The translations under genes and the position numbers were made by a program. A model generated the notes under the pieces. It was given only the letters and a program-made list of their open reading frames with translations. It had not been told where the DNA came from and searched no databases. Positions 3,302 through 28,086 of a stretch of 48,646 nucleotides of DNA are shown piece by piece. The first letter of the stretch is position 1; each line of letters starts with the position of its first letter. Source of the stretch: Opitutia bacterium (GTDB lineage: Bacteria; Verrucomicrobiota; Verrucomicrobiia; Opitutales; T3Sed10-336); the NCBI GenBank assembly GCA_003558065.1, contig PWMU01000175.1, positions 1-48,646 of the forward strand, in the 5' to 3' direction.

Positions 3302-4540
3302 TCACTCGTACCGCAACGCCTCGATCACGTTCATGCGGGCTGCCCGCATCGCCGGATAGACGCCCGAGGCGAGCCCAATTGCGGCCGAAAACAGGAATCC
3401 CACCACCATCGCCGGGGATGAGAGCACGATTCGAAACTGTTCGGCCTCCACGAGTTCCTGCATCATCACAACCAGTCCCACGCTGGCCATCACTCCGATC
3501 ATTCCGCCGACCACGCTGATCACCACCGCTTCGGCGAGAAACTGGATAAATATGTCGGTTCCCCGTGCTCCGACCGCCTTGCGCACCCCGATCTCGCGTA
3601 TCCGTTCGTTGATGACAGCGAGCATGACGTTCATGATGCCGATTCCGCCCACCAGGAGCGAAATTCCCGCCACCCCGCCGAGAGCAAACGTAAAGGAGCG
3701 CTCCATCCTGCGGAACTCCGCCAATTGCTCTTCCATTGTCGCGACCTCGAAATCGCGGATTCCGCGCCGGGTCTGCATGAGGATGTTGCTCACCTGCTCA
3801 ATCGCGTCTTCAAGGTAGGCAACGTCGGCCACCTGCACGGAAAGACTGTTCAACCGGTCGTTTCCACTGAACCGTTTCATGCCGGTGGTCACCGGAATCA
3901 GCCCGACCCGGTTCTGCCGCGAAAACCATCCGCCCTGATCGGGCCCACCCATGGGTTCGAGGACGCCGATGATCCGGAAGTTTGTGCCGTGAATATTGAT
4001 CCGTTTGCCGACGGCATTCCCTTCGGGAAAGAGGTGGTCGCCGATCCAGGAACCCAGGACCACCACGGGCGAGGCATCCGCAATGTCAAGATCGCCGATA
4101 AACCGTCCCTCCCGCAGTTCCAGTCGCAGGACCTCCCGACGGTCGGGAAGGACCGCGCGCAAGGGAGCATTCACCCTTTCCCCGTCGTGTGAGAAACGCC
4201 GCCACCCCAGGGAAACCTCCGGATCGATCCACCTGACCAGCGGACTTCCCCCGCGGATCGCCTCGACATCGCGAAACGTCATCCCCGGCGATAAATGCGC
4301 GATATGCGCCTGTTCGTCGGGCGGCTCGCGGGTTTCGACCGTCAAACGGGTGATGCCGCCGGTTCGCTCGAAGTACTCGCGCATCTCGCCAAGCATCCCC
4401 TGGACCACCCCCACCATCGCGACCAGTGCCGCCACCCCGAGAATGATTCCGGCCATTGACAACAGCGACCGGAACTTATGGGCCCAAACCTCGCCCAGGC
4501 CATTCACCAGTCCCCCGTAGAATGTAAGCATCCAGTTCAT
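3302..4540 (-). CDS. MacB-like ABC transporter permease
   Basis: Inner-membrane permease of a MacB/LolC-type ABC transporter, 412 residues from the ATG at 4540. One membrane helix lies near the N-terminus (FRSLLSMAGIILGVAALVAM), followed by a large periplasmic domain (roughly residues 50-290) and three helices at the C-terminal end (FALGGVAGISLLVGGIGIMN; AVVISVVGGMIGVMASVGLV; MVVGFLFSAAIGLASGVYPA). NERIREIGVRKAVGA is the conserved cytoplasmic loop of FtsX/MacB permeases. The ATG overlaps the stop of the ATPase gene (ATGA), so I preferred it to an upstream frame start at 4579 inside that gene. Unlike classical MacB, the ATPase is a separate protein. With the adaptor upstream this forms a tripartite efflux set; the outer-membrane channel is not in the window. 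The substrate is unknown. Confidence 0.88.
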   Translation of the reverse strand: MNWMLTFYGGLVNGLGEVWAHKFRSLLSMAGIILGVAALVAMVGVVQGMLGEMREYFERTGGITRLTVETREPPDEQAHIAHLSPGMTFRDVEAIRGGSPLVRWIDPEVSLGWRRFSHDGERVNAPLRAVLPDRREVLRLELREGRFIGDLDIADASPVVVLGSWIGDHLFPEGNAVGKRINIHGTNFRIIGVLEPMGGPDQGGWFSRQNRVGLIPVTTGMKRFSGNDRLNSLSVQVADVAYLEDAIEQVSNILMQTRRGIRDFEVATMEEQLAEFRRMERSFTFALGGVAGISLLVGGIGIMNVMLAVINERIREIGVRKAVGARGTDIFIQFLAEAVVISVVGGMIGVMASVGLVVMMQELVEAEQFRIVLSSPAMVVGFLFSAAIGLASGVYPAMRAARMNVIEALRYE

Positions 4541-5223
4541 ACAGGTCTCGACGTGTCTTCGGAAATCCTCCCGTCGCACATTCGGATCGTCCGCCGGGCG
4601 AAACCGGCGACATGTTCGTCGTGGGTCACAACGACAATGGTCTGGCCTTCCGCGGACAACCCTGTAAAAAGCTCCATGATCCGGTCGACATTGCGGCTGT
4701 CCAGATTGCCGGTCGGCTCGTCGGCCAGGATCAGCGAGGGAGTATTGACGATGGCCCGCGCGATGGCGGCCCGTTGACGTTCCCCCCCGGAAAGCTGGCT
4801 GGGAATGTGCGTCGCGCGGTGGGTCATGCCGACGCGCTCCAGAGCCGTGGCGGCCCGGGCGTTACGGTCCCTGATGCCGGAGCGGCTGTAAACAATGGGT
4901 AGCACGACGTTATCGGCAACGGTCAGGCGAGGGAGCAGGTTGAACGCCTGAAAAACAAACCCGATGCGATTGGCCCGGTACCAGGAGCGATGCGCGCGGC
5001 TGATCCGCCCCACTTCGTTTCCCTCGAACTGCAGGCGGCCGCCGCTGGGACTGTCCATGAATCCAAGAATATGCATCAGGGTCGACTTTCCCGAACCGGA
5101 AGGCCCGAGAATCGCCACAAATTCGCCGGGATCGATCCTGAGCCCGACTCCGTCGAGCGCGCGGACCGTCTCGTCCCCCATCCTGTAGATTTTGCTGAGA
5201 TTCTCGAATTCGACCAGAGGCAT
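4537..5223 (-). CDS. ABC transporter ATP-binding protein (MacB/LolD type)
   Basis: Cytoplasmic ATPase that powers the neighbouring permease, 228 residues. Visible motifs in order: Walker A GPSGSGKSTL (about residues 40-49), Q-loop FVFQAFNLLPRLTV, signature LSGGERQRAAIARAI, Walker B LILADEPTGNLD, and the switch histidine in VVVTHDEHVAG. The LLPRLTVADNV segment and short length are typical of the LolD/MacB/FtsE family of mechanotransmission ABC proteins. It is translated between the adaptor (36 bases upstream) and the permease (ATGA overlap). The start is consistent with MPLVEFENLSKIYRMG at the N-terminus of related proteins. Confidence 0.92.
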   Translation of the reverse strand: MPLVEFENLSKIYRMGDETVRALDGVGLRIDPGEFVAILGPSGSGKSTLMHILGFMDSPSGGRLQFEGNEVGRISRAHRSWYRANRIGFVFQAFNLLPRLTVADNVVLPIVYSRSGIRDRNARAATALERVGMTHRATHIPSQLSGGERQRAAIARAIVNTPSLILADEPTGNLDSRNVDRIMELFTGLSAEGQTIVVVTHDEHVAGFARRTIRMCDGRISEDTSRPV

Positions 5224-5259
5224 GCGGTTCCTTGCATGAACGTCGTTAAAGCCGGCGGC

Positions 5260-15198: not shown

Positions 15199-17829
15199 AT
15201 GCCGCAATCCACCGAGGAAATAATATCTCTCCAATCACTGACCCTGTCCGAAACACAGGGTATGCCCATCAGGCTCCTCGTCCACCTCCCGCCGAATCTT
15301 GAGGAGGCGGCCGAAAGGAATGCCATTCCGGTCCGGTTGGAGATCGAATTCGCCGACGGTTCCCTCAGCTCTCCCGAGAAGATGGACGGGGACCGTCCCT
15401 ATAACCTGGCCCCCCCTCACCTGCAGGCCGGCAAGCTGGTGGAAAACTGGTGCGGCGACAAACTGGCCGGGTTCCTTCAGCTGCGACGTGCCCAGTTGAA
15501 GAAACTGCTCGAAGCGCTTCGGGGCGAACCGGTGTTTTTTATCGCGGGTCACGGAAAAGATCCCGCCGAATGGCACGGAACACTCCTTGCCGGCGTCAGC
15601 GAACACCTGGAAACCGATGCCGACGAGGAGGAAACCGGGGAAGAGGGCGACGACTGGGAGGAGGACGAGGAGGATTTCGAAGGGAAGACCGAACACCCGC
15701 CCAAACCCCAGGCGCCCGACATCAACGCCGGGCACACGCCGATGGAAGTGGACGGCTCCGGGGATTACCTGGCAATCAGCCTTCCCTCCCGCGAACATCC
15801 CTACTACGAGGACGCCCTCAACCTCCTTAAGGGAAACGAATTTCTCCTCGATCCTTCGTCGCGCAAATGGTGGCTGCGGGACAGGCACAAGGTCCTGAAC
15901 TTCCTGGCCGAGAAACAAAGCATGCTGGAGAACAAATTCCAGGCGCGTTTCACGGACAACTTCATCAAGAATACCGAACGAATCACCGACGCGAAGATCA
16001 CCTGTATCGCGAGGGAAGAAGCCGGGCAATTTGTCGTGCAAACGTCTCTCAAGGCCGGTAAATTCAAGTTCCGCGAGATTCAGAACAACATCAACTCCGG
16101 GAAGAATTACGTCGAAACCCCCACTCGCGTCTTCCTGATCTCCGAAAAGAAACTCAGGGGACTGGAGCACCTGCAACGATCGCTCGCCGGCAACCACAAC
16201 CAGGCCCTTGTGCCGCGCACGAATCATCGTATTGAAACGCGTGATATGCCGGACACCGAGCATCTGATGGAGACCATTGCCGACCACTATCAGACGCCCG
16301 GGACCTGGAAGAAGCGCAGTGTCGCGATCCGGGACCTGTCCCGGCTGGAGCGTCCGCCCATCCCCCGGGACCTCGACAATGCGCTCCGCGCCTACCAGCG
16401 ACTCGGAGTCGCCTGGATGTACCATCTTTACCGGAACCAACTCGGGGGAATCCTGGCCGACGAGATGGGACTGGGAAAAACCATCCAGGCCCTCGCCCAC
16501 CTCGCCGCGATCCGCAAGGCACAGATCCGGAAGCGCAAATTCAAGCAACGAAGCAAGAAGAAGGGCAATCGCGGGCGCAATGCCAAACCGGCCTCCTCCC
16601 CGTTCCTGGTCGTCTGTCCGGCCGGTCTCCTCACCAACTGGAAACGCGAGACCCAGCGTTTCGTGCCAATGTTCAAATTCTTTGTCCACCACGGCAACGA
16701 GCGGCTTTCGACTCCGGAGGAATTTGAGCAGTACGATCTGGTCATGACCTCGTACACCACGCTGATCCGGGACGCCGAGCTCTTTCAGAGCCTGGTCTTC
16801 GACTGTCTCATCGCGGACGAGGCTCAGCACATCAAGAATCCGCAAACCCGCAATTTTCGCTCCATTTGCTCGCTGTACAGCCGCGGGCATTTCCTCCTGA
16901 CCGGCACGCCGCTCGAAAACAGCCTGGACGACCTGGTCGCGCTGTTTGACTTCATCCTTCCCGGCTACCTGCACAAACCGCCGGCCAACCCGAAAGCCGA
17001 AGAGCGCGCCTGGTACGACAACCGTATCCAGCAGAAGGCGGCACCGTACATTCTGCGGCGCACCAAACAGCACGTGGCGCCGGAACTCCCGGACAAAATC
17101 GAACAGGTCATCTACTGCGAAATGGGCGCCGCCCAGCGGCAGCAGTACCAGGAGCTCAAGGAATCGACCCAGAAAGCCATCTTCGAACTGGAGATGGGCG
17201 GAGCTTCCGAAGGACGCCTGCGGGTCGCCGCTTTCACGCAGTTGCTGCGGCTTCGCCAATTCTGTTGCGATCCGCGACTCCTGCGGAAAGACAAGGAAAC
17301 CGCGCCGGACGAGTCGATCGAATCCGCCAAAAAGGACTCCTTTATCGAACTGGTCCAGGAGTCGATCGACGGGGACCACCGCATGCTCGTCTTTTCGCAG
17401 TTCGTCTCCCTGCTCCACATTCTCCGGGAGGAACTCGACCAGGCCGGTCTCTCGTATTGTTACCTTGACGGAAAGACCAGGGACCGGATGAAGGAGGTCG
17501 ACCGCTTCAACAATTCCCCGGACATTCCCGTTTTCCTTATCTCACTCAAAGCCGGAGGCACCGGCCTCAATCTGACCGGCGCCGACACAGTCATCCATTA
17601 CGACCCGTGGTGGAACCCGGCGGTCGAAGCCCAGGCAACCGACCGGGCGCACCGAATCGGCCAGAGCAAGGTCGTCACCAGCATCAAGCTGATCGCAGCG
17701 GATACCATCGAGGAAAAGGTTCTCGAGCTCCAACGCTCGAAATCGAATCTCCTCAAAGACCTATTCGCGGCCAGCGAAAGCGCCAACGCCAAAATCACGA
17801 TCGACGATATCAAGGAGCTCCTGGAGTAG
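15199..17829 (+). CDS. SNF2-family DNA helicase/translocase
   Basis: Superfamily 2 DNA translocase of the SWI2/SNF2 (RapA/HepA-like) type, 876 residues. Motifs: I ILADEMGLGKTIQ (around residue 420), II DEAQHIKN (about 540), III LLTGTPLENSLDDLVALFDF, V LISLKAGGTGLNLTGADTVI and VI RAHRIGQSKVVTSIK (about 817). The N-terminal 370 residues are unlike the motor and include a highly acidic stretch (DADEEETGEEGDDWEEDEED, residues about 136-155). No SWIM zinc finger was recognised. The motor is interrupted after motif I by a Lys/Arg-rich insertion (RKAQIRKRKFKQRSKKKGNR). No ribosome site is obvious. The exact role (repair, transcription recycling) cannot be told from sequence. Confidence 0.93.
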   Translation: MPQSTEEIISLQSLTLSETQGMPIRLLVHLPPNLEEAAERNAIPVRLEIEFADGSLSSPEKMDGDRPYNLAPPHLQAGKLVENWCGDKLAGFLQLRRAQLKKLLEALRGEPVFFIAGHGKDPAEWHGTLLAGVSEHLETDADEEETGEEGDDWEEDEEDFEGKTEHPPKPQAPDINAGHTPMEVDGSGDYLAISLPSREHPYYEDALNLLKGNEFLLDPSSRKWWLRDRHKVLNFLAEKQSMLENKFQARFTDNFIKNTERITDAKITCIAREEAGQFVVQTSLKAGKFKFREIQNNINSGKNYVETPTRVFLISEKKLRGLEHLQRSLAGNHNQALVPRTNHRIETRDMPDTEHLMETIADHYQTPGTWKKRSVAIRDLSRLERPPIPRDLDNALRAYQRLGVAWMYHLYRNQLGGILADEMGLGKTIQALAHLAAIRKAQIRKRKFKQRSKKKGNRGRNAKPASSPFLVVCPAGLLTNWKRETQRFVPMFKFFVHHGNERLSTPEEFEQYDLVMTSYTTLIRDAELFQSLVFDCLIADEAQHIKNPQTRNFRSICSLYSRGHFLLTGTPLENSLDDLVALFDFILPGYLHKPPANPKAEERAWYDNRIQQKAAPYILRRTKQHVAPELPDKIEQVIYCEMGAAQRQQYQELKESTQKAIFELEMGGASEGRLRVAAFTQLLRLRQFCCDPRLLRKDKETAPDESIESAKKDSFIELVQESIDGDHRMLVFSQFVSLLHILREELDQAGLSYCYLDGKTRDRMKEVDRFNNSPDIPVFLISLKAGGTGLNLTGADTVIHYDPWWNPAVEAQATDRAHRIGQSKVVTSIKLIAADTIEEKVLELQRSKSNLLKDLFAASESANAKITIDDIKELLE

Positions 17830-18098
17830 AAGCGGTCCACCCGGTGCCCGCGTTTCAAAGACAAGGCGTCGTTAGCGAAAACGCTCATTCGGGATAAGTT
17901 TCACTCATATGAGCAACAGTAGTTGCTTGTTCGTTTATCTTCGGCAAGTGAAGCGGGCGCGAGGCTTTCCCGTTCCGGCCGTTTGCTTCTGGAGCACCCC
18001 GCGGCAAACAGATGCGAACTTGGAGAACAGGTCCGTAGGGTAATCCCCTATGGGTGCATGCGGACTTCTCTCGATGCTCAATAGTAGACTCACCCCGA

Positions 18099-18126
18099 TT
18101 GTGGATGAGCAGGCAATTGTTATAAA
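18099..18126 (+). promoter_or_regulatory. Promoter candidate of the lasso-like peptide operon
   Basis: TTGTGG (18099-18104), 16-base spacer, TATAAA (18121-18126). It lies about 120 bases before the peptide ATG, leaving a long leader. Spacing is near the sigma-70 optimum, but only four of six bases match in the -35 box. Confidence 0.4.
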
Positions 18127-18235
18127 GTGGGACCCGTGAGAGTGAAGTTCACCGCCTATCGGATTCTTCTGATCACACACACAAACACACATGTTGAGTC
18201 GCGAACCATTCCGGATCGCGAAATAATCAAAGCAC

Positions 18236-18241
18236 AGAAGG
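18236..18241 (+). promoter_or_regulatory. Ribosome binding site of the lasso-like peptide
   Basis: AGAAGG, 7 bases before the ATG at 18249. It supports real translation of a gene otherwise easy to overlook. Confidence 0.6.
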
Positions 18242-18248
18242 TAAGCCA

Positions 18249-18383
18249 ATGAAAAACACCAAACAACAGTCCTTGCGTCCCTACACGCCTCCGAAGCTCT
18301 CCAGCTACGGAAACGTATCCAAGCTGACTCTTGAGCTCCGGTACAAAATGGCCGGTAATGGGAATAACGGTTCGGTTTCTTAA
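18249..18383 (+). CDS. Lasso-type leader peptide, probable RiPP precursor (44 aa)
   Basis: A 44-residue peptide. Residues 12-27 read YTPPKLSSYGNVSKLT, an exact match to the lasso-precursor leader signature Y-x2-P-x-L-x3-G-x5-T, which in known systems is bound by an RRE (B1/PqqD-like) protein, with the Thr at position -2 of the cleavage site. Cleavage by that rule would leave ELRYKMAGNGNNGSVS. This tail does not begin with Gly and has no Asp/Glu at positions 7-9, so the usual lasso macrolactam cannot form. It ends in serine, the residue phosphorylated in paeninodin-type lasso peptides, and the next gene, 49 bases on, is an HPr-kinase-like protein. Start supported by AGAAGG 7 bases upstream. 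The gene is real with good probability; what it becomes is open. Confidence 0.78.
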   Translation: MKNTKQQSLRPYTPPKLSSYGNVSKLTLELRYKMAGNGNNGSVS

Positions 18384-18432
18384 TATTCCTGCGGTTTCCG
18401 GGTGATTGACCAATCACTCATGTGAATCGGTT

Positions 18433-19359
18433 ATGTATGAATATTATTTAGCCGGACTCGGTATTCGCTCAGACATTGAACTTCCGCTCTCGAAAGCGGA
18501 GCTTCCAGGTACGGGAGCGGAAGTTTCTCTTTCGCACGGCCCTCCTTTGCCCGAGGGAAACTGCCCGCCCAAGGCCGAATGGAATTGGCCGTCGCCGGAC
18601 GAGGCCAGCCTGAGTTATCCCCGGCTGGGGATGGCATCGATCTCGGAAGGGAAACGAATCCTGCTGCGACCGTATGCCGGCAACACTTCGACGACTGAGT
18701 GGCGGGGATTGTTGATACCCTGTTTTGCCGCGCTCTTTCATCAACGCGGGGCCCTGTCCCTTCATGCGAGTGCGGTGTACACCAACGGACAGGCCGTCGG
18801 ATTCATGGGATACCCAGGAGCGGGCAAATCGACTTTGGTCGCTCAACTGGTTGGATCGAGCTTCAGCTTTTTGTGCGACGATCTTCTTCTGACCAGCGCG
18901 ACCGGCGACAACCGCGGCTTTCTGGCACACCCCGGCTTTAGAATCATCAAGCTCTGGGAGGACGCCGTGCGGGCCGCCGGCGCCGGTAATTCGCGCATCG
19001 GACGTCTCTATCCGGATGCCGACAAGGACGGATTCACCCCTCCCTCCCTGAAGTCGAGGTTCTCCCCCGCCCCGCTCAAGTGCCTCTTTGTTCTCGAAGA
19101 AGGCGATCGCGTGAAAGTCGAAACGCTGTCGAGGCCGGACGCGCTTGCCGAACTGCTCCGTCAGACTTACGGCGTGCTGTCATTCAAGCAGAAACCGCTG
19201 CCGGTCCATTTCCGCCAATGCGGCGAACTGGCCGCTAGAATCCCTGTCAAGCGCCTGATCCGGCCAAAAACCTTCGCCGGCTCGGCCGGGGTCGAACAGG
19301 CGATCACCGAGGCGCTGGACGAGGACCGCCGCACCCAACTTGGAAAAATGCCGGTTTGA
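18433..19359 (+). CDS. HPr-kinase-like protein, candidate peptide serine kinase
   Basis: 308-residue P-loop protein of the HPr kinase-related family found in lasso-peptide clusters; characterised members phosphorylate the C-terminal serine of the precursor. Seen here: N-terminal strand MYEYYLAGLGIRSDIELPL typical of the group, then GALSLHASAVYTNGQAVGFM leading into Walker A GYPGAGKSTL (about residues 125-134) and the acidic motif FLCDDLLLTS (about 151-160). It lacks the full bifunctional HprK/P architecture and no HPr/PTS gene is nearby. The ATG at 18433 was preferred to a TTG at 18406, as homologues begin with this strand. It follows the lasso-like peptide directly and is probably co-transcribed. 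The peptide as substrate is inference from position and family. Confidence 0.82.
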   Translation: MYEYYLAGLGIRSDIELPLSKAELPGTGAEVSLSHGPPLPEGNCPPKAEWNWPSPDEASLSYPRLGMASISEGKRILLRPYAGNTSTTEWRGLLIPCFAALFHQRGALSLHASAVYTNGQAVGFMGYPGAGKSTLVAQLVGSSFSFLCDDLLLTSATGDNRGFLAHPGFRIIKLWEDAVRAAGAGNSRIGRLYPDADKDGFTPPSLKSRFSPAPLKCLFVLEEGDRVKVETLSRPDALAELLRQTYGVLSFKQKPLPVHFRQCGELAARIPVKRLIRPKTFAGSAGVEQAITEALDEDRRTQLGKMPV

Positions 19360-19458
19360 TTGGCTGAGGGCTCGTTACCCTGGACTAAGTAATATTTTTA
19401 TCTTGCAAACGCCCTCCCGGCCCGTTTAAAAAACCTCCATCCCTTAAACGCTCTCAAA

Positions 19459-20286
19459 ATGAAATACCTAAGTACCACCGTCGCTTTCTTGATCGCTTCG
19501 GCTGTAGCCGGAACGAGCCAGGAAACCCTGCTGGAGTTTGACATCGGTAATCTGGAGTTCGATCCGCCGGGCTCGCTCGCCCCGTCGTTCACTGCTCCGA
19601 ATGTGTCCGGCGGCGACCTTTCCCGGCAGGGAGTCGACCATGATCCTTTCTTCGGCGACGGGGAGGAAAACGTGGCGGCAGACTCCGACGGGCTTTATGG
19701 CGCCGGTGAATGGCCGGCCGATTCCAGTGCCGACGCCGAAAAGTATTTCGAATTCTCGTTAACTCCTGATGAAAACTTCAGCCTGACCGTTGATTCCCTC
19801 CAGCTTGGGCTTTTCACGGAGAACACCCAGGACGTTGACCCCGACGACGGGTCAATCAACGAGTTCCTTGGGCCGAGGCTTTGGGATGTTTCCTACAGCC
19901 TGGACGGTTTTACTACCGTGGGTACCGTGCTGGATACCCTGGAAACGCCTCTCCCTGAGGATGTGCCGGCGGGAGAAAGCCGCTGGGCCCAATACACCTT
20001 CACTCTTACGGATCTCGCTATTGTCGGGACGCTGGGGCAAACGATCACCTTTCGTGTGGCCGGCTACGATCGACCGGAGGGCTCCGACTCACGTTCCTAC
20101 GGTGGCTTCAGTAACGCCACAGGAGACGCTCCGTCGCTGGGTTTTCCGAGTTCCTGGGAAGGACAGGGCGCCAATATCACAGCGTCGGGAACCGTAATTC
20201 CCGAACCTTCTCAGGTGGCCGCGTCGATCGCGGGATTGGCGTTCCTGGTCACCGTGCTGGTTCGCCGCCTCCGCCGAAAGGCTTGA
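19459..20286 (+). CDS. PEP-CTERM sorting-signal exported protein
   Basis: 275-residue secreted protein of unknown function. The signal peptide is about residues 1-20 (MKYLSTTVAFLIASAVAGTS). The middle is an acidic beta-rich domain without cysteine (DFDIGNLEFDPPG-like start, many Asp/Ser/Gly). The C-terminus is a complete PEP-CTERM tripartite signal: VIPEPSQ, a hydrophobic stretch VAASIAGLAFLVTVLV and a basic end RRLRRKA. Such proteins are sorted by an exosortase, which is not in the window. The gene follows the kinase by 99 bases on the same strand with no obvious terminator between, so it may belong to the same transcript, and it is closed by the terminator at 20314. No Shine-Dalgarno is seen before its ATG. 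Confidence 0.85.
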   Translation: MKYLSTTVAFLIASAVAGTSQETLLEFDIGNLEFDPPGSLAPSFTAPNVSGGDLSRQGVDHDPFFGDGEENVAADSDGLYGAGEWPADSSADAEKYFEFSLTPDENFSLTVDSLQLGLFTENTQDVDPDDGSINEFLGPRLWDVSYSLDGFTTVGTVLDTLETPLPEDVPAGESRWAQYTFTLTDLAIVGTLGQTITFRVAGYDRPEGSDSRSYGGFSNATGDAPSLGFPSSWEGQGANITASGTVIPEPSQVAASIAGLAFLVTVLVRRLRRKA

Positions 20287-20313
20287 GCCACTCTGCGAAA
20301 GAATCCTTTTCCG

Positions 20314-20345
20314 AAAAGGTCCCGGTTCTACCGGGACCTTTTTTT
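20314..20345 (+). terminator. Strong intrinsic terminator after the PEP-CTERM gene
   Basis: Perfect 12-bp stem AAAAGGTCCCGG / CCGGGACCTTTT with loop TTCTA, followed by further T's (seven T's in all). It ends the plus-strand transcript that includes the PEP-CTERM gene, and perhaps the peptide and kinase. Because the stem begins with A's it could also act on minus-strand transcripts from the phosphofructokinase gene. Confidence 0.9.
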
Positions 20346-20388
20346 GGGACCAAGTCAGGTGGATGAGGAGGCTCCCGTGGCCCAGGTC

Positions 20389-21543
20389 TCAGGTGCGCCG
20401 CACACGGTTGCCCATGCAGGTCTCCACCAACTCGGCGGCATGGATCCACGGGTGATCAGCCGGCACTGTACGGTGGCCGCGTGAAACCTCCTCCAGAGGA
20501 ACCGGGACCGTTTCGGATCCGCTTACGGCCACCATCACGTTGTACTCTCCATCCGCAAGCAACTCCCCCGCGCGGGTTCCCAGGAGGGTGCACAAATGCC
20601 GGTCCTGCGGAGACGGCGACCCGCCGCGCTGAACGTGCCCGAGCGAGGTGGTTCGCGCCTCCAGTCCGGTAAGCTGCTGAAGCTGCCTGGCGATTCGACT
20701 GTCGAGGGATTCCTGAACGAGGTGCGGCCCTTCGTGCAGCGCATCCGCCTTCTTTCTGGTGTCTTCCACGTCATTTGAATTCTCCGCTCCGGAGGGAGTC
20801 GCGGCTTTCCCGTCACGCGCCTCCTTGACGGAACGGGCTCCTTCGGCCACGACAACGATGGAAAAGCGCTTACTGTGCTTGCGCCGCTCGAGGAGGTGCT
20901 CGACAACCACCTCGCGATCATAAGGGATCTCCGGAATGAGGATCACATCGGCCCCGCCCGCAATGCCGGCCCCGAGAGCCAGCCAGCCGGCTTTATGCCC
21001 CATGACTTCACACACGATCACACGGTGGTGACTGGTGGCAGTCGTATGCAGGCGATCGATCGCTTCGGTCGCGATGTTCATGGCGGTATTGAAACCGAAG
21101 GTGACATCGGTTCCGATGACATCGTTGTCGATGGTTTTCGGAAGGGTGATCACATTCATTCCCGCCTCCCGAATACGCTGGGCGTTCTTCTGGGTACCGT
21201 TCCCGCCCAGGCACACAAGGCAGTCGATCTCGCGGGCGCGGGCATTCGCAACGGCAACGCCCGTCATGTCGAGGATCTGGTTCCCCATCGGCATCTTGTG
21301 GGGTTTGTCGCGGCTGGTGCCAAGAATGGTTCCGCCGAGGGTGAGGATGCCCGAGACATCGGGATCCTCGAGCAGCTGAAACCGGTTCTCCACAAGTCCG
21401 CGGAACCCGTCAGGAATCCCCAGGACCCGAATACCGTAGTGCATCGCCGACTTCGCGACAGCTCGAATCGCCGCATTCAAGCCAGGGCAATCTCCGCCTG
21501 AGGTGAGAATTCCGATGCGTTTGGTCTTGGATAAACGGCCCAT
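20389..21543 (-). CDS. pfkA: 6-phosphofructokinase family protein
   Basis: Phosphorylates fructose 6-phosphate in glycolysis, 384 residues. The opening ILTSGGDCPGLNAAIR and the substrate motif PKTIDNDVIGTDVTFGF (with the catalytic Asp in TIDND) are clear, as is HVQRGGSPSPQDR near the C-terminus. The phosphate-donor site reads GGNGT rather than GGDGS/T: the Asp that usually binds magnesium is Asn, while the small residue after it fits ATP use. PK at the second donor position (PKTIDND) is the form seen in PPi-dependent and some actinobacterial ATP enzymes. A poorly conserved insertion of about 30 residues (GKAATPSGAENSNDVEDTRK) precedes the last domain. ATG at 21543 chosen (MGRLSKTKRIGILTSGG). 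Donor specificity cannot be settled here. Confidence 0.88.
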   Translation of the reverse strand: MGRLSKTKRIGILTSGGDCPGLNAAIRAVAKSAMHYGIRVLGIPDGFRGLVENRFQLLEDPDVSGILTLGGTILGTSRDKPHKMPMGNQILDMTGVAVANARAREIDCLVCLGGNGTQKNAQRIREAGMNVITLPKTIDNDVIGTDVTFGFNTAMNIATEAIDRLHTTATSHHRVIVCEVMGHKAGWLALGAGIAGGADVILIPEIPYDREVVVEHLLERRKHSKRFSIVVVAEGARSVKEARDGKAATPSGAENSNDVEDTRKKADALHEGPHLVQESLDSRIARQLQQLTGLEARTTSLGHVQRGGSPSPQDRHLCTLLGTRAGELLADGEYNVMVAVSGSETVPVPLEEVSRGHRTVPADHPWIHAAELVETCMGNRVRRT

Positions 21544-21636
21544 AGACGATCTACCTACAACCAATCAACCCGCCTCGGCAATGCCGATTTTCGATGAGGC
21601 TTGACCTGCGCCGGGCATCCGCTACGAAAAGACCCC

Positions 21637-21741
21637 ATGGGACAACAATACAACAAGGTGATCAAACGTATCCGCCGCAAGCGCTACCTCGCCCGTCGCA
21701 AAGAACGGGCCCAAGCTGCGTCGGGCAGGAAAAAGAAGTGA
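21637..21741 (+). CDS. Small basic protein (34 aa), unknown
   Basis: MGQQYNKVIKRIRRKRY followed by a Lys/Arg/Ala tail ending GRKKK. More than 40% of residues are Lys or Arg, suggesting nucleic-acid or ribosome association. Its stop overlaps the GTG start of the DUF1294 gene (GTGA), so the two are translationally coupled. I believe similar tiny proteins occur in other Verrucomicrobiota, but this is recollection, not a search result. Divergent from the phosphofructokinase gene. Confidence 0.6.
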   Translation: MGQQYNKVIKRIRRKRYLARRKERAQAASGRKKK

Positions 21742-22016
21742 CCGCCATTTGGGTCGGGACGGTTTACGGAACCGTCAGCCTGATAACCTTCATCGCCTAT
21801 GCGTGGGATAAACGCAGGGCACAAAAGGGCGGCCGAAGGATTCCGGAATCCACCCTGCATTCTTTCGCCCTGCTGGGAGGCTGGCCGGGCGCATTCCTCG
21901 GGCGCCGGGTCTTGCGGCATAAGACACGGAAATTTTTGTTCCGGGCGGTCTTCTGGCTTATCGGCGCCGTCCATGTCTGTGCCTGGGCCGGATTCATTTT
22001 TTATTGGAACGATTGA
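21738..22016 (+). CDS. DUF1294 family small membrane protein
   Basis: 92-residue inner-membrane protein. The GTG at 21738 follows AGGA and overlaps the stop of the small basic protein; the longer open frame to 21594 runs through that gene and is not used. Two to three membrane segments are seen (WVGTVYGTVSLITFIAYAWD; FWLIGAVHVCAWAGFIFYW). Between them lie the family motifs AYAWDKRRAQKGGRRIPEST and LLGGWPGAFLGRRVLRHKTR, the latter ending in RKFLFRAVFW. Some members are fused to a cold-shock domain; this one is not. Function is unknown. Confidence 0.85.
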   Translation: MTAIWVGTVYGTVSLITFIAYAWDKRRAQKGGRRIPESTLHSFALLGGWPGAFLGRRVLRHKTRKFLFRAVFWLIGAVHVCAWAGFIFYWND

Positions 22017-22156
22017 TCCGGCCGAGGGCCATCGGCTTGCCAATAGCCTCAGAAGGGTACGAAGCCGACCCCAACGGATGGAAAGCACCCCGTCTCCTCC
22101 CGGCCCGCCGCACGAACGGCTTCACCCTGCGATTCCCCGCAGGAGCGGGTTCACAC

Positions 22157-22205
22157 CGCAATCCGAACGAAACGGCGACACCGCCGGCGTTCGTTCGGTA
22201 TTGCG
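22157..22205. terminator. Long hairpin between convergent genes
   Basis: CGCAATCCGAACGAA pairs with CGTTCGTTCGGTATTGCG (one bulge), enclosing an inner CGGCG/CGCCG pairing. It lies in the 193-base gap where the DUF1294 gene and argG converge, just past the argG stop. No T-run is present, so a Rho-independent function is uncertain. Confidence 0.5.
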
Positions 22206-22209
22206 ACGG

Positions 22210-23451
22210 CTAGTAAGTCGAATCGGAGCGGATGAAGTCCTTCTGCGCCGCGTGGCGCGCCCGCAGCCGCAGGCCCTGAAGGCGAATAAAGCCGGTGGCG
22301 TCGTTCTGATTGTAGCTGCTCGCCACTCCTTCCATTGAAGCGACTTCCGGGTCGTACAGGGAATACGGCGATTTGCGCCCGCAGGTGATCACATTGCCCT
22401 TGTAGAGCTTAAGCCTGACCGTTCCCGTGACGGGCTTCTGGCTTTCGTCGATCAACGCCTGCAGGGCCTCCCGCTCGGGCGCGTACCAGAATCCGTAATA
22501 GATCAATTCGGCATAACGCGGCATCAGACCGTCCCGCAGGTGCATGAGTTCCCGGTCGAGGGTCAGGCTTTCCACCTGGCGGTGGGCGTGCATCAGGATG
22601 GTTCCCCCTGGGGTTTCGTAAACGCCCCGGCTCTTCATGCCGACAAACCGGTTTTCGACCAGGTCCACCCTTCCCACTCCGTGCTTTCCTCCAAGCCGGT
22701 TGAGCTTTTTGAGCACCGCCGCCGGACTCAGCCGTTCTCCGTTCACGGCCACGCAGTCTCCCGCCTCGAAATCGAGCTCAACGTATTCCGCCTCGTCCGG
22801 AGCCTCTTCCGGGGATACCGAGAGTTTGAACATTTTCCGGTTCTCCACCGTCGTCGGATCAAACCACGGATCCTCCAGAATCCCGGCTTCATAGGATATG
22901 TGCAGGAGATTCCGGTCCATCGAATACGGCTTTTCCGCACTCGCTTCCACGTCGATGCCGTTTTTCCGGCAATACTCGATCATTTCGCTACGTCCGGGAA
23001 AGGTTTCCCGAAACTCATCCAGCCGCCAGGGTGCGATGATTTCGAGATCCGGGGCCAGCGCTGTGTAGGTCAACTCGAACCGGCACTGGTCGTTACCCTT
23101 GCCCGTGGCCCCGTGGGAAACGGCCGTCGCCCCGGACTTGCGGGCCAACTCAACCTGCGCCTTGGCGATTAGCGGCCGGGCGATCGAGGTCCCCAGGTAG
23201 TACTGGCCTTCGTAGATCGCGTTGGCCCGGATCATGGGGTAAATGAAATCGGTCGCAAACTCGTCCACCAGGTCCAGGGTGTGGTGCTCGATCGCGCCGG
23301 TCGCGCGCGCCTTCTCCGGCAGCCCGCCCAGCTCCTCCTCCTGGCCGATGTCAGCCGCAAAAGTCACGACTTCGGCGGAATACCGTTCCTGTATCCATTT
23401 AACGATGACTGAGGTGTCCAGCCCGCCGGAATATGCGAGAACCACTTTCAT
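22210..23451 (-). CDS. argG: Argininosuccinate synthase
   Basis: Joins citrulline and aspartate with ATP in arginine biosynthesis. The protein is 413 residues, near the usual 400. The N-terminus [20 protein letters not shown] carries the PP-loop ATP motif SGGLDTS; further family motifs are [17 protein letters not shown] and [17 protein letters not shown]. The ATG at 23451 was used; the frame remains open for 157 codons upstream but homologues begin at [10 protein letters not shown]. No argH or other arginine gene is adjacent. Its C-terminus reads [20 protein letters not shown], as in other ArgG proteins. Very secure. Confidence 0.97.
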
Positions 23452-23770
23452 AGACGGTCTATCATCAACGGGAAATCCGGACGGAGCAAAGCAAAACTGT
23501 CCTTCAATATCAATCGACCGGGAAGCCGGGTTCCCTCTCAGAATTCCGTCACCGCAGGCGGGGTCCCCCGAGATCCGGAATACCCGGAGCGACCGGGTCT
23601 CCCCGGGCGCCGGAAGAACGATTCGACCCGGACAGCCGTTCGAATGGAGCCACCGCGGTCGCTTGCCATGGTTACCCGATTGTTCCTGCGCACTTGACGA
23701 ACGTTGCCGAATTTCAAACAATCCCCCTGCTTCTCGATCGCCAACCCGCGTTTTCAACCACCTCGCACTC
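23452..23770. other. 319-base divergent intergenic region
   Basis: Lies between argG (minus) and the Gfo/Idh gene (plus), so it must hold two promoters. I see no clear -35/-10 pair or operator dyad. The argG frame stays open through it, but without a family match or a start signal. Confidence 0.4.
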
Positions 23771-25132
23771 ATGAAAAGCCCTGTCGCCTCCGCTAACCGC
23801 CACCCCCGACTCACCCGGCGCGAAATGCTGAAAATGACCGCTCTCGGGCTGGCCATACCCCTGTTCGCACCGGCTTGCGCCACGTCTTCCCGCCGCAACG
23901 CCCGACGCTCGAACGCCGACACGCTTCACATCGGCTGTATCGCGACCGGTCGCATGGGCCGGGGCGACATGAGAGCGGCGCTGCAGCAGGGCCTCGATCC
24001 GGAAATCAACGCACGGGTGGTGGCGGTGTGCGACGTCGACGCCAACCGGGCAGCGCTGGCCAGGGCGATGGTCGAAACGTTTTACAAGGAGAACCTGCCG
24101 GATGAGACGCACCCGGAAATCGCGGTTTACCGGGATTACCGGGACTTATTGGGACGCCGGGACATCGAAGGTGTCACCATTTCCACCCCCGACCACTGGC
24201 ACGCGCTCAACGCCATCGACGCCGCGAACGCCGGCAAAGACATGTACATTCAAAAGCCCCTGACGTGGTCCATCGGCGAGGGCAAGGAACTGGTCAAAGC
24301 CGTCCGCCGGAACAACGTCGTCCTGCAAACCGGGTCCCAGCAGCGCTCGAACGCCCGTTGGCGCAGGGCCTGCGAACTGGTCCGCAACGGTCGCATCGGG
24401 AAAGTGGAAAGCGTTCTGGTCACCCTCCCCTCCGACAGCGGCACCGGGAATCCGGAACCGATGCCCGTGCCTGAGAATCTCGACTACGACATGTGGCTGG
24501 GCCCGGCACCCGAAGCCCCGTACACCGAGGACCGGGTCCACCCGCAGGACGGCTTCGGACGCCCCGGCTACCTCCAGATTGAACGGCACTGCCTGGGAAT
24601 GATCACCGGATGGGGAAGCCACATGTTCGACATCGCCCAGTGGGGCCTCGGCACCGACGACACCGGCCCCCTCGAAATGCGGGCTAAGGGCGAGTTTCCG
24701 GACCGGGGGCTGTTCGATGTTCACACGAATTTCGAGGCCGAGGGGCGTTACGCCGACGGCGTCAAACTGCTCGCCAAAACCGGTTCGGCCGGAGTTCGTT
24801 TCAACGGCGAGGACGGATGGCTTTTCGTCAGCCGGGGCGGCATCGAGGCCAGCGATCCCGCGATTCTCGAGGATGAAATCGGCGACGACGAAATCAGGCT
24901 TTATCACAGCGAAAACCACATGCGCGACTTCCTCGAATGCATGAGAACCCGCAAGGATCCGATCTGCCCGGTGGAAGTGGGCCACCGTTCCAACAGTGTA
25001 TGCGTGATGACCCACATCGCCATGAAGCTCGGTCGCGAAGTAAATTGGGACCCCGGGCGGGAACGGTTCATTGATGACGACCAAGCAAACGCGATGCTCT
25101 CGCCCAGCTACCGTGCTCCCTGGAAGGTTTGA
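23771..25132 (+). CDS. Gfo/Idh/MocA family NAD(P)-dependent oxidoreductase, exported
   Basis: 453-residue sugar or inositol dehydrogenase-like protein. Residues about 15-38 form a twin-arginine signal ([20 protein letters not shown], then ACA), so it is predicted to leave the cytoplasm folded with its cofactor; the Cys could be lipid-modified, though the box is not canonical. A Rossmann segment follows ([16 protein letters not shown], with [12 protein letters not shown] after it). [20 protein letters not shown] and the EKP-like motif [16 protein letters not shown] are diagnostic; the usual Glu before Lys-Pro is Gln here. The C-terminal domain includes [20 protein letters not shown]. The ATG at 23771 was chosen over the long upstream frame because the signal peptide begins there. 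The PmoA-like gene starts six bases after the stop, so the two form an operon. Confidence 0.9.
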
Positions 25133-25138
25133 TCATCT

Positions 25139-26089
25139 ATGAAACCCTTAATGAATTCACCCGTACCCGTCAGCGTTCTGGCCGGTTTTTTTCTGGTTGC
25201 CTGTGTTATGCACGGCGACTTTGCCTTCGAAGAATCCGACGGGCGTTTGCTGCTTACTGAAGGCGGTGCGCCGGTTCTGGTCTTCAATTACAAAGACATT
25301 GAACCGCCCGGGGACCGCGAAGGTGTCGCGCGCAACGGTTACATTCATCCTCTTTACGACCCCGACGGCATTCCGCTGACGGATGACTTTCCTCCGGACC
25401 ACCCCCACCACCGCGGGGTCTTTCTCGCCTGGCCCCGGATAGCCGTTCTGGGAAACCAGGTCGACGTGTGGCACCTGCGGGGAATCCAACCTGCCTTTGA
25501 AGAATGGGGGCCCAGGGAAACCGCGGGTGGATCCGCCTATTTCGAGGCCGGTCAGATCTGGAGGCTGGACGACGGCCGCGATGCGGCCCGGGCCCGCTTG
25601 CGCTATACGGTTCACGCGTTCGACGGAATCGGCCGTGCGATCGACATTCACGCGACGGTCACCAACCTCACGGAGGAACCGCTGACCCTGCGCGGATCCG
25701 GCGCCGCCTATGGCGGATTGAATATTCGTATGGACGGCGAACGCCCGGACGTCGTCATCACCACCGCTGAGGGAATACTCGAAGGCAACTCGAACGAAAT
25801 CGACCCCCCGAGCCCCTGGGCGGACCATTCCAGCCGGCCCGCCGACGACCGGCCGCATTCGGGCGTCGCCATTTTCCAGCACCCGGATAACCCGGATTTT
25901 CCCGCGCGCAACTGGACACTGCGGCCCTACGGCTTCCTCGGCGCCGCCTGGCCGGGAGAGAACAGCCACGAATTGGCGCCCGATGAATCCCTGGACCTCC
26001 GCTACCGCCTGTTCATCCACAACGGCACCGCAGACGACGCCAATGTGCCGGAACGGTTCGAGGCCTACTTACGCGAGGCGACGGAGTAA
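25139..26089 (+). CDS. PmoA-like (DUF6807) exported protein
   Basis: 316-residue protein of the family annotated 'PmoA family' (DUF6807); the link with methane monooxygenase is historical and does not indicate that activity. It has an N-terminal signal (SVLAGFFLVACVMHG) and the family motif DHPHHRGVFLAW, with YIHPLYDPDGIPLTDDFPPD before it. These histidines may bind metal or substrate. The C-terminal motif NWTLRPYGFLGAAWPGENSH is also conserved. It lies six bases after the Gfo/Idh gene, a pairing common in sugar-degrading Planctomycetota and Verrucomicrobiota, so a periplasmic role on an oxidised sugar is plausible but unproven. Confidence 0.85.
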   Translation: MKPLMNSPVPVSVLAGFFLVACVMHGDFAFEESDGRLLLTEGGAPVLVFNYKDIEPPGDREGVARNGYIHPLYDPDGIPLTDDFPPDHPHHRGVFLAWPRIAVLGNQVDVWHLRGIQPAFEEWGPRETAGGSAYFEAGQIWRLDDGRDAARARLRYTVHAFDGIGRAIDIHATVTNLTEEPLTLRGSGAAYGGLNIRMDGERPDVVITTAEGILEGNSNEIDPPSPWADHSSRPADDRPHSGVAIFQHPDNPDFPARNWTLRPYGFLGAAWPGENSHELAPDESLDLRYRLFIHNGTADDANVPERFEAYLREATE

Positions 26090-26238
26090 TCCCGTCGGGG
26101 ACAGTGGTCGAATTGATGAATCGCGGCACCGGCCAAGCGTTGCCGGATAGCTCTGGAACCTAACCCCGCATCCCGGATTGATTGAAACCCGTCCGTCAAA
26201 CGGACAAACCCAAACCAACACCTGACCCCTGTCCCTTC

Positions 26239-28086
26239 ATGACTCAGCAACCCGACCCCGACTCTCAGGAACAGCCCGGCGGAACGCCTTCCGAAAAACA
26301 CATTTTACGTGAAGCGGATGCCGCGGGCGGATGGAAAAAATACCGCACCTACCTCGCCCTCTCCGGCCCGGGTTTTCTGCAGAGCGCGATTACGCTCGGA
26401 GGAGGAACGCTTGCCGGCAGCCTTTACCTGGGCGTGCTGGCGGGAACGAGCATGCTGTGGGTCCAGCCCATGGCGATGATGATCGGCATCATCATGCTCT
26501 GCGCCATCGCCTACGTCACGCTGTCCACGGGACGCCGGCCCTTCGAGGCGATCAACACCGAAGTGAATCCGGTATTCGGCTGGGGCTGGGCACTGGCGGC
26601 GTTTGTGGCAAACATGGTCTGGGTCATGCCTCAGTATACGCTGGCCGTGGGGGTATTTGAGCAGAATCTTCTTCCCGGGGTGTTCGGTGAAAACGGGGCC
26701 CTGCCCCAAACTACCGGCAGGCTCATCCTGGTGTTTCTCATCTTTGGCATCGCCCTGGCGGTGACCTGGAGCTACGGCCGCGCCGGGATCGGTGTGAAGC
26801 TGTTCGAGCTCCTCATCAAACTGATGGTTGCCTTTATCGTACTGGCCTTCATTGGAGTGGTGATACGCCTGGCATTCGAGCCCGGAGTTTTTAATTGGGG
26901 CGAGATTCTTCGCGGCTTTATCCCCAACCCGGCAATGATTCAGCGCCCCGCCGAAGGGTTCCAGGCCCTCCTCGGCCATATCCCGCCGCAATTCTCCGAA
27001 TACTGGGTGGAGATCATTGTCGGCGATCAACGTAACGTCATTGTAGCCACGGCGGCCACGGCGGTTGGCATCAATATGACATTCCTCTTTGGGTACTCGC
27101 TCCTCCGGCGGCGCTGGGGAAGGGAGTTTCGCGGATTTGTGAAATTCGACCTCGCGACCGGGATGCTGATTCCCTTCCTGATCGCCACGAGTTGCGTGAT
27201 TCTCGCCGCCGCCAGCCAGTTTCACCGGGTCCCCCAGCACGGCTTGATGGACCCGGAAGAGATCGCCATGGTCCAGGAGGAACTCGGCGAGGAAGCCCGG
27301 GAGGTTCCCGAGGCCCTTCGCGCCTCCGAAGGCCAGCGAGACGCCTACCGCAAGCTTCTGCTGGAGCGGGCGCTGCTCGCCATGGACGAGGAAGAGGCCG
27401 AGAGTGTTCGTTCGGAGCTCGGAACCCTCCAGGACGATCCTGACCGGGAGAACGATTATAACAGTCGGCTGGACGAGCTGACCGCCGTCACCACCCCTTA
27501 CGACCGCTACCTCGCCGCGACCCTTGTCCGGCGGGACAACTTCGATCTGGCCACCGCGCTGGAACCCTTGCTGGGCCGGTTCTTCGCGCAGGTCATCTTC
27601 GGTCTCGGGGTTTTGGGAATGACGTTTTCAAGCATCACCCTTCTGATGGTGATATCCGGTATTGGTTTTTGCGAGTTTCTGAACAAGCCGCACGAAGGAT
27701 GGTGGTTCCGCTTCGGCGCACTCTTTCCGGTAACCGGCGTTATCGCCCCGTTTTTCTGGACGGCGGCAGCTCCGTGGTTGGTCGTTCCCGTATCGGTCTT
27801 CGCCTTCCTCCTGATTCCTCTCGCCTACATTTCCTTCTTCGCCCTGATGAACCAGAAAACCCTCCTGGGAGACGACATGCCCAGGGGCGGCCGGCGGATC
27901 GCCTGGAACGTGTTCATGGGCGGCGCGCTCCTGATTATCGTGCCGTCGAGCCTGTACATGCTTTACAACCGTTTCGGCCTGGGCGGTCTGACAGCGGCTG
28001 CACTCGTCCTGCTTCTGGCCGCTGCCGTCCACATCTATCGCAAAAACCAGGTCCGCCCGGAACAGCCCCATCGACCCGATTTCTGA
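26239..28086 (+). CDS. Divergent Nramp-like transporter
   Basis: 615-residue inner-membrane protein with about eleven hydrophobic segments, opening with the Nramp phrase YLALSGPGFLQSAITLGGGT. In true Mn/Fe transporters helix 1 continues with D-P-G-N and helix 6 has a Met-Pro-His metal site; here these are LGGGT and VGINMTFLFGYSLLRRRW, so the metal ligands are missing. Another oddity is a hydrophilic, Glu-rich insertion of about 100 residues (PEEIAMVQEELGEEAREVPE and onward, roughly residues 337-440) between two helices. ATG at 26239 (MTQQPDPDSQEQPGG) preferred to a TTG at 26182; there is no Shine-Dalgarno. It may move another ion, or none of the classical metals. It follows the PmoA-like gene by 149 bases. 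Confidence 0.8.
   Translation: MTQQPDPDSQEQPGGTPSEKHILREADAAGGWKKYRTYLALSGPGFLQSAITLGGGTLAGSLYLGVLAGTSMLWVQPMAMMIGIIMLCAIAYVTLSTGRRPFEAINTEVNPVFGWGWALAAFVANMVWVMPQYTLAVGVFEQNLLPGVFGENGALPQTTGRLILVFLIFGIALAVTWSYGRAGIGVKLFELLIKLMVAFIVLAFIGVVIRLAFEPGVFNWGEILRGFIPNPAMIQRPAEGFQALLGHIPPQFSEYWVEIIVGDQRNVIVATAATAVGINMTFLFGYSLLRRRWGREFRGFVKFDLATGMLIPFLIATSCVILAAASQFHRVPQHGLMDPEEIAMVQEELGEEAREVPEALRASEGQRDAYRKLLLERALLAMDEEEAESVRSELGTLQDDPDRENDYNSRLDELTAVTTPYDRYLAATLVRRDNFDLATALEPLLGRFFAQVIFGLGVLGMTFSSITLLMVISGIGFCEFLNKPHEGWWFRFGALFPVTGVIAPFFWTAAAPWLVVPVSVFAFLLIPLAYISFFALMNQKTLLGDDMPRGGRRIAWNVFMGGALLIIVPSSLYMLYNRFGLGGLTAAALVLLLAAAVHIYRKNQVRPEQPHRPDF

Follow-up and report, generated by a model that had tools for sequence, protein, structure and literature searches.

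The closest described relatives of the locus analysed here are the phosphorylated lasso peptides (paeninodin PadeA/PadeK, ThcoK, SyanK, pseudomycoidin PsmK, and BsfA/BsfK), whose precursors carry a leader of the YxxPxL type and are modified by HprK-like kinases, in paeninodin-type precursors at the C-terminal Ser. The known lasso cyclases close the ring by activating the side chain of an Asp or Glu at core position 7-9, and kinases of the paeninodin type act on the linear precursor before the leader is removed (PMC9266682). In the case of BsfK the leader is required, and the RRE assists the reaction (PMC10368454). Related to the lasso peptides are the linear polyphosphorylated peptides (LPPs) of the Bacillota, which are linear, kinase-modified RiPPs and demonstrate that a peptide with a lasso-like leader that is modified only by a kinase can be a real product (PMC13381572). 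Each LPP cluster comes with a dedicated RRE and a signal peptidase of the SipW type, the leaders have the pattern YxxPxVLxHQxIxFETxxS, and they have been described as restricted to the Bacillota (PMC13381572).

The DNA stretch analysed (48,646 nucleotides, called the window below) is contig C162 of a 4.13-Mb draft genome, which is 97% complete. It encodes a precursor-like peptide followed by the gene of an HprK-like kinase. The locus shares with the phosphorylated lasso peptides the YxxPxL-type leader, a kinase with the same catalytic residues in the same spacing, and the C-terminal Ser as in paeninodin, but it is devoid of cyclase, RRE, and B2, and its core contains no Asp or Glu as ring acceptor. 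With the LPPs it has in common the expected linear core, the HprK-like kinase as primary modification, the YxxP leader, and a lasso system in the same genome. However, the leader is of the lasso type and does not follow the LPP pattern, no RRE was found in the genome outside the lasso cluster on contig C122, and the inserted segment at the locus comprises only the peptide, the kinase, and a PEP-CTERM-like protein. Because the locus lacks the RRE, the signal peptidase, and the leader by which LPPs are defined, we do not file it as an LPP. Judged by these comparisons it is a variant around the phosphorylated lasso systems, and the resemblance to LPPs lies in the predicted outcome. The best explanation, to which we assign a probability of about 0.4, is that the locus represents a satellite that has become detached from the genome's lasso system, a precursor without ring acid and a lasso-type kinase inserted at a new site, and that the peptide is perhaps phosphorylated to a linear product with the help of the RRE protein and the protease from C122 in trans.

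The peptide (MKNTKQQSLRPYTPPKLSSYGNVSKLTLELRYKMAGNGNNGSVS) comprises 44 residues with Ser as last residue and is encoded at 18249-18383 on the forward strand, with a ribosome-site-like AGAAGG in front of the ATG. In its leader, YTPPKLSSYGNVSKLT, residues 12-27 (18282-18329, forward strand) match the lasso signature Y12-x2-P15-x-L17-x3-G21-x5-T27 exactly. The strict motif is expected in short ORFs only 0.013 times per simulated window compared to the one occurrence seen. With the lasso precursor models of NCBIfam the peptide obtains 18.3 (NF033528) and 17.8 bits (NF033521), both below the curated cut-offs, and the canonical precursor from C122 scores on par with it (18.6 and 18.0 bits, respectively). 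The leader is thus a lasso-type leader by sequence, and would be the putative recognition signal for B1. The codon of Ser44 (18378-18380, forward strand) corresponds to the position that is phosphorylated in paeninodin-type precursors (PMC9266682).

Contig C122 of the same genome contains a complete lasso cluster. On the reverse strand it encodes the RRE protein B1 (26320-26625), the protease B2 (25914-26336, 89 bits), an ABC transporter (24076-25896), two lasso cyclases in tandem (21599-23536 and 19650-21545), the precursor with an Asp at core position 9 (19252-19404), a 399-residue protein with a second RRE domain at its end (17942-19141; same coordinates in L004), and an HprK-like kinase (16793-17734), which are followed by a nucleotidyltransferase on the forward strand (15486-16763). 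Apart from the two RRE domains in this cluster, no PqqD/RRE domain was found in the genome, and the only peptides with a lasso leader detected there are the C122 precursor and the window peptide. The C122 precursor answers the call of the original prediction for further peptides with the same leader, and the cluster itself supplies the B1, B2, cyclase, and PqqD-like genes for which a search of the genome had been suggested. The absence of cyclase, RRE, and B2 from the 48.6 kb of the window was confirmed by a homology search with the cluster proteins, whose sole match there is an unrelated ABC ATPase (4531-5226). A third Asn_synthase gene, on C26, probably encodes a housekeeping asparagine synthetase; its match is far stronger than those of the cyclases, and five further genomes of the family contain strong counterparts.

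An alignment of the window peptide with the precursors from C122 and from the related genomes G004 and G005 needs no gaps in leader or core. All four have the leader residues Y, P, L, G, V, L, and T as well as a G-S-V in the tail in common. Core shuffling gives p=0.0016 for GSV in the same register and p=0.011 for the whole core. This support is modest and post hoc, and GSV is a short match. In the column of the ring Asp all three canonical precursors have Asp, whereas the window peptide has Asn37 (codon AAT, 18357-18359, forward strand) at core position 9, if Thr27 is counted as -2. The core, ELRYKMAGNGNNGSVS, contains no Asp or Glu other than the first residue, and thus none at core positions 7-9, so that the peptide cannot form a canonical lasso ring. 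According to this alignment the window peptide is a diverged, acceptor-less paralogue of the C122 precursor. Compared with the C122 cluster and its counterparts in G004 (C67) and G005 (C36), the locus has a precursor homologous in leader and core tail and also an HprK-like kinase, but it differs in the missing Asp at core position 9 and in the type of kinase. For the proposal of a lasso system served in trans this means that the machinery is available in the genome and that leader and kinase have the expected lasso affinity, but that the proposal fails for the product.

The kinase has 308 residues and is encoded at 18433-19359 on the forward strand. The assignment is based on the match to TIGR04352 (38.8 bits), the alignment with kinases of lasso clusters, and the PEPCK/HprK fold of the model. 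The originally assumed TTG start at 18406 has been replaced by the ATG at 18433, which is favoured by the alignment with the nearest relative that begins there too. The ORF is intact, and the complete Walker A motif that had been noted before is present (G126-Y-P-G-A-G-K-S-T134, 18808-18834, forward strand). Together with His111 upstream and Asp149-Asp150 (18877-18882, forward strand) it forms the His-(Walker A Lys/Ser)-Asp-Asp catalytic set of the lasso-type HprK-like peptide kinases, and H111, G126, G129, G131, K132, S133, D149, and D150 are all found in the exact spacing of BsfK (PMC10368454). In the AlphaFold2 model (pLDDT 85) the kinase adopts the PEPCK/HprK fold with PEPCK chains as best structure matches (Z about 18) and HprK/P chains at a Foldseek E-value of about 1e-5, and a profile search also finds HprK structures by sequence. 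The P-loop fold and the H/Walker A/DD motif are shared with HPr kinase/phosphorylase and the PEPCK fold, but the scores against the curated full-length HprK models are far below the cut-offs (TIGR00679, 14.7 bits versus 240; PF07475, 12.2 versus 33.3), and a role linked to HPr is not indicated. The lasso affinity of the kinase has thus held up, and we regard it as a putative lasso-type HprK-like peptide kinase. With the kinase from C122 it shares only about 25% identity. In the tree it forms a supported clade with the kinase of G003, a genome of the same genus, separate from the C122 type, which is conserved in G004 and G005.

Peptide and kinase are part of an insertion of about 2.5 kb (2.56 kb, 17830-20388) between the genes of an SNF2-type helicase (15199-17829) and a phosphofructokinase (20389-21564). 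The insertion also contains a PEP-CTERM-like exported protein (19459-20286, forward strand; TIGR02595 with 12.8 bits, below the cut-off of 16). The flanking genes are adjacent in G003 (about 174 bp in between), G005, and G006, and the site is accordingly empty in these three relatives. An assembly join is an unlikely source of the insertion because both flanks are in one contig and the gene order is conserved on each side. The borders revealed nothing convincing in terms of transposon ends or repeats, tandem repeats were not found, and neither a sigma-70 promoter nor an RNA family was matched at the locus. A palindrome, GTAGGGTAATCCCCTA (18036-18051), precedes the peptide by about 200 bp and occurs as a single copy in the window. 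It is absent from the C122 stretch that was read and from the other loci, and the idea of a shared regulatory site was dropped for this reason. The 10 exact matches in viral contigs look, by our estimate, like chance for a 16-mer given the size of the collection, and the stability of the hairpin does not exceed that of shuffled sequences. The palindrome may be the site of a regulator or chance.

The combination of peptide and kinase was found in no other genome in searches that covered 273 and 373 members of the order. Conserved peptide-kinase synteny, whose absence had been named as a refuting outcome, was thus not seen. Within the reach of these searches the proposal of a separate family of phosphorylated peptides with a lasso leader fails, given the single genome with the pair and a kinase-bearing relative without the peptide. 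Weak matches to the peptide elsewhere in the order (E-values 0.01-0.04) were not precursor-like where the loci were read. Homologues of the kinase are present in 10 of the 273 genomes and, apart from the window, G003, and G157, are all accompanied by B1, cyclase, ABC, or nucleotidyltransferase genes. From the reading of its ORFs, the distant match in G157 is located beside radical-SAM-like and PqqD-like genes. The nearest relative and sole close one is the kinase of G003 (54% identity), which was also the only one outside the window that turned up when one genome per species was scanned. It is not encoded at the SNF2/phosphofructokinase site, and its start overlaps the end of a truncated B1/RRE gene (L023:5209-5457; G003:C157), of which 55 residues are 73% identical to the C122 B1 before the homology ends. 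There is no other lasso gene nearby, and a relaxed leader pattern and the reading of small ORFs did not reveal a precursor. In the whole G003 genome neither B2 nor a lasso cyclase or precursor was found, although the compared genomes are drafts, some of them incomplete, and with G003 being 82% complete an absence there is weak evidence. Because the flanks adjoin in the relatives, and because the G003 kinase is located elsewhere beside a truncated B1 and without a precursor, the pair looks like pieces of a moved lasso cluster and not like a conserved two-gene system.

If the locus is a detached satellite, the B1 protein from C122 would bind the window leader in trans, the linked kinase would phosphorylate the linear precursor at its C-terminal Ser44 (or at Ser42), and the B2 protease from C122 would take off the leader. 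The product would stay linear because the cyclases would find no Asp or Glu to activate. For FusB1, a lasso RRE from an actinobacterium, binding of foreign YxxP leaders has been reported, and lasso RREs outside the Bacillota are described as relaxed in specificity (PMC13381572); therefore, B1 from C122 could bind the window leader as well. That an acceptor-less lasso precursor has in this way turned into a linear phosphopeptide borrowing the RRE and the protease of an intact cluster, as a lasso-to-linear step outside the Bacillota and independent of the LPPs, is somewhat unlikely. Against the satellite count the restriction of the pair to one genome and the possibility that the kinase does without the peptide, because the G003 kinase exists without peptide, B2, or lasso cyclase in a genome 82% complete. 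If functional, the locus would make this a split RiPP system, with a single lasso cluster also working for an additional precursor that is not linked to it and is not cyclisable. Linear phosphopeptides could then arise from lasso peptides through the loss of one residue, and genome mining that demands a cyclase beside the precursor would overlook such products.

Nearly as likely is that precursor and kinase are a functionless fragment of a dismantled lasso cluster, copied to or left at the new site and heading for loss. The single genome, the lost ring acceptor, the truncated B1 beside the G003 kinase, and the empty site in three relatives would all be in agreement with such a relic. However, both ORFs are intact, the leader motif and all catalytic residues have been retained, and the dN/dS between the window and G003 kinases is about 0.24 at 54% identity, which points to a kinase evolving under constraint, although dS is near saturation. 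A relic would document how lasso clusters break up, and in both cases the genome provides a natural experiment on RRE promiscuity with one B1 and two precursors, with and without ring acid. Clearly less probable is that the kinase has another substrate, either a different protein or the C122 precursor, and that the adjacent peptide is incidental. The G003 kinase without detectable precursor, B2, or lasso cyclase, the low identity to the C122 kinase, and the clade with G003 alone would fit, but nearly all related kinases of the order are located in RiPP clusters, a lasso leader directly upstream of the kinase is improbable by chance, and the C122 precursor is linked to another kinase and has a last residue other than Ser. 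It is very unlikely that a true lasso with an unusual ring, e.g. through Asn37 in the Asp column of the paralogues or another linkage, is made in trans by the two C122 cyclases available for one precursor, because known cyclases use an Asp or Glu at core position 7-9 (PMC9266682), which the peptide does not have, and because G004 has two cyclases and one precursor and no orphan peptide.

For the latter reason the window peptide does not explain the second C122 cyclase, and a dedicated service of this cyclase for the peptide has been set aside. Two species of the genus have retained a tandem of two cyclases with a single precursor (C122:19650-23536; G004:C67 = L032:4830-8938). The 399-residue protein of the C122 cluster combines the C-terminal RRE (PF05402) with an N-terminal part containing a VVVVDDCALSG motif, and has relatives at L032:1234-2412 and L031:4769-5962. 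Among known structures, its model, which is of low confidence (pLDDT 58), matches those of lasso B1 and more weakly those of phosphoribosyltransferases, and a literature search for a similar enzyme alongside lasso peptides found nothing. Between the ABC transporter and cyclase genes there is a spacer of low-complexity repeats (C122:23517-23900; RYSLFVIRYSLFVI when translated). A large exported LamG-like protein is encoded beside the lasso cluster (C122:11530-14838), and a 42% identical counterpart is found beside the G003 kinase (L023:1504-4608).
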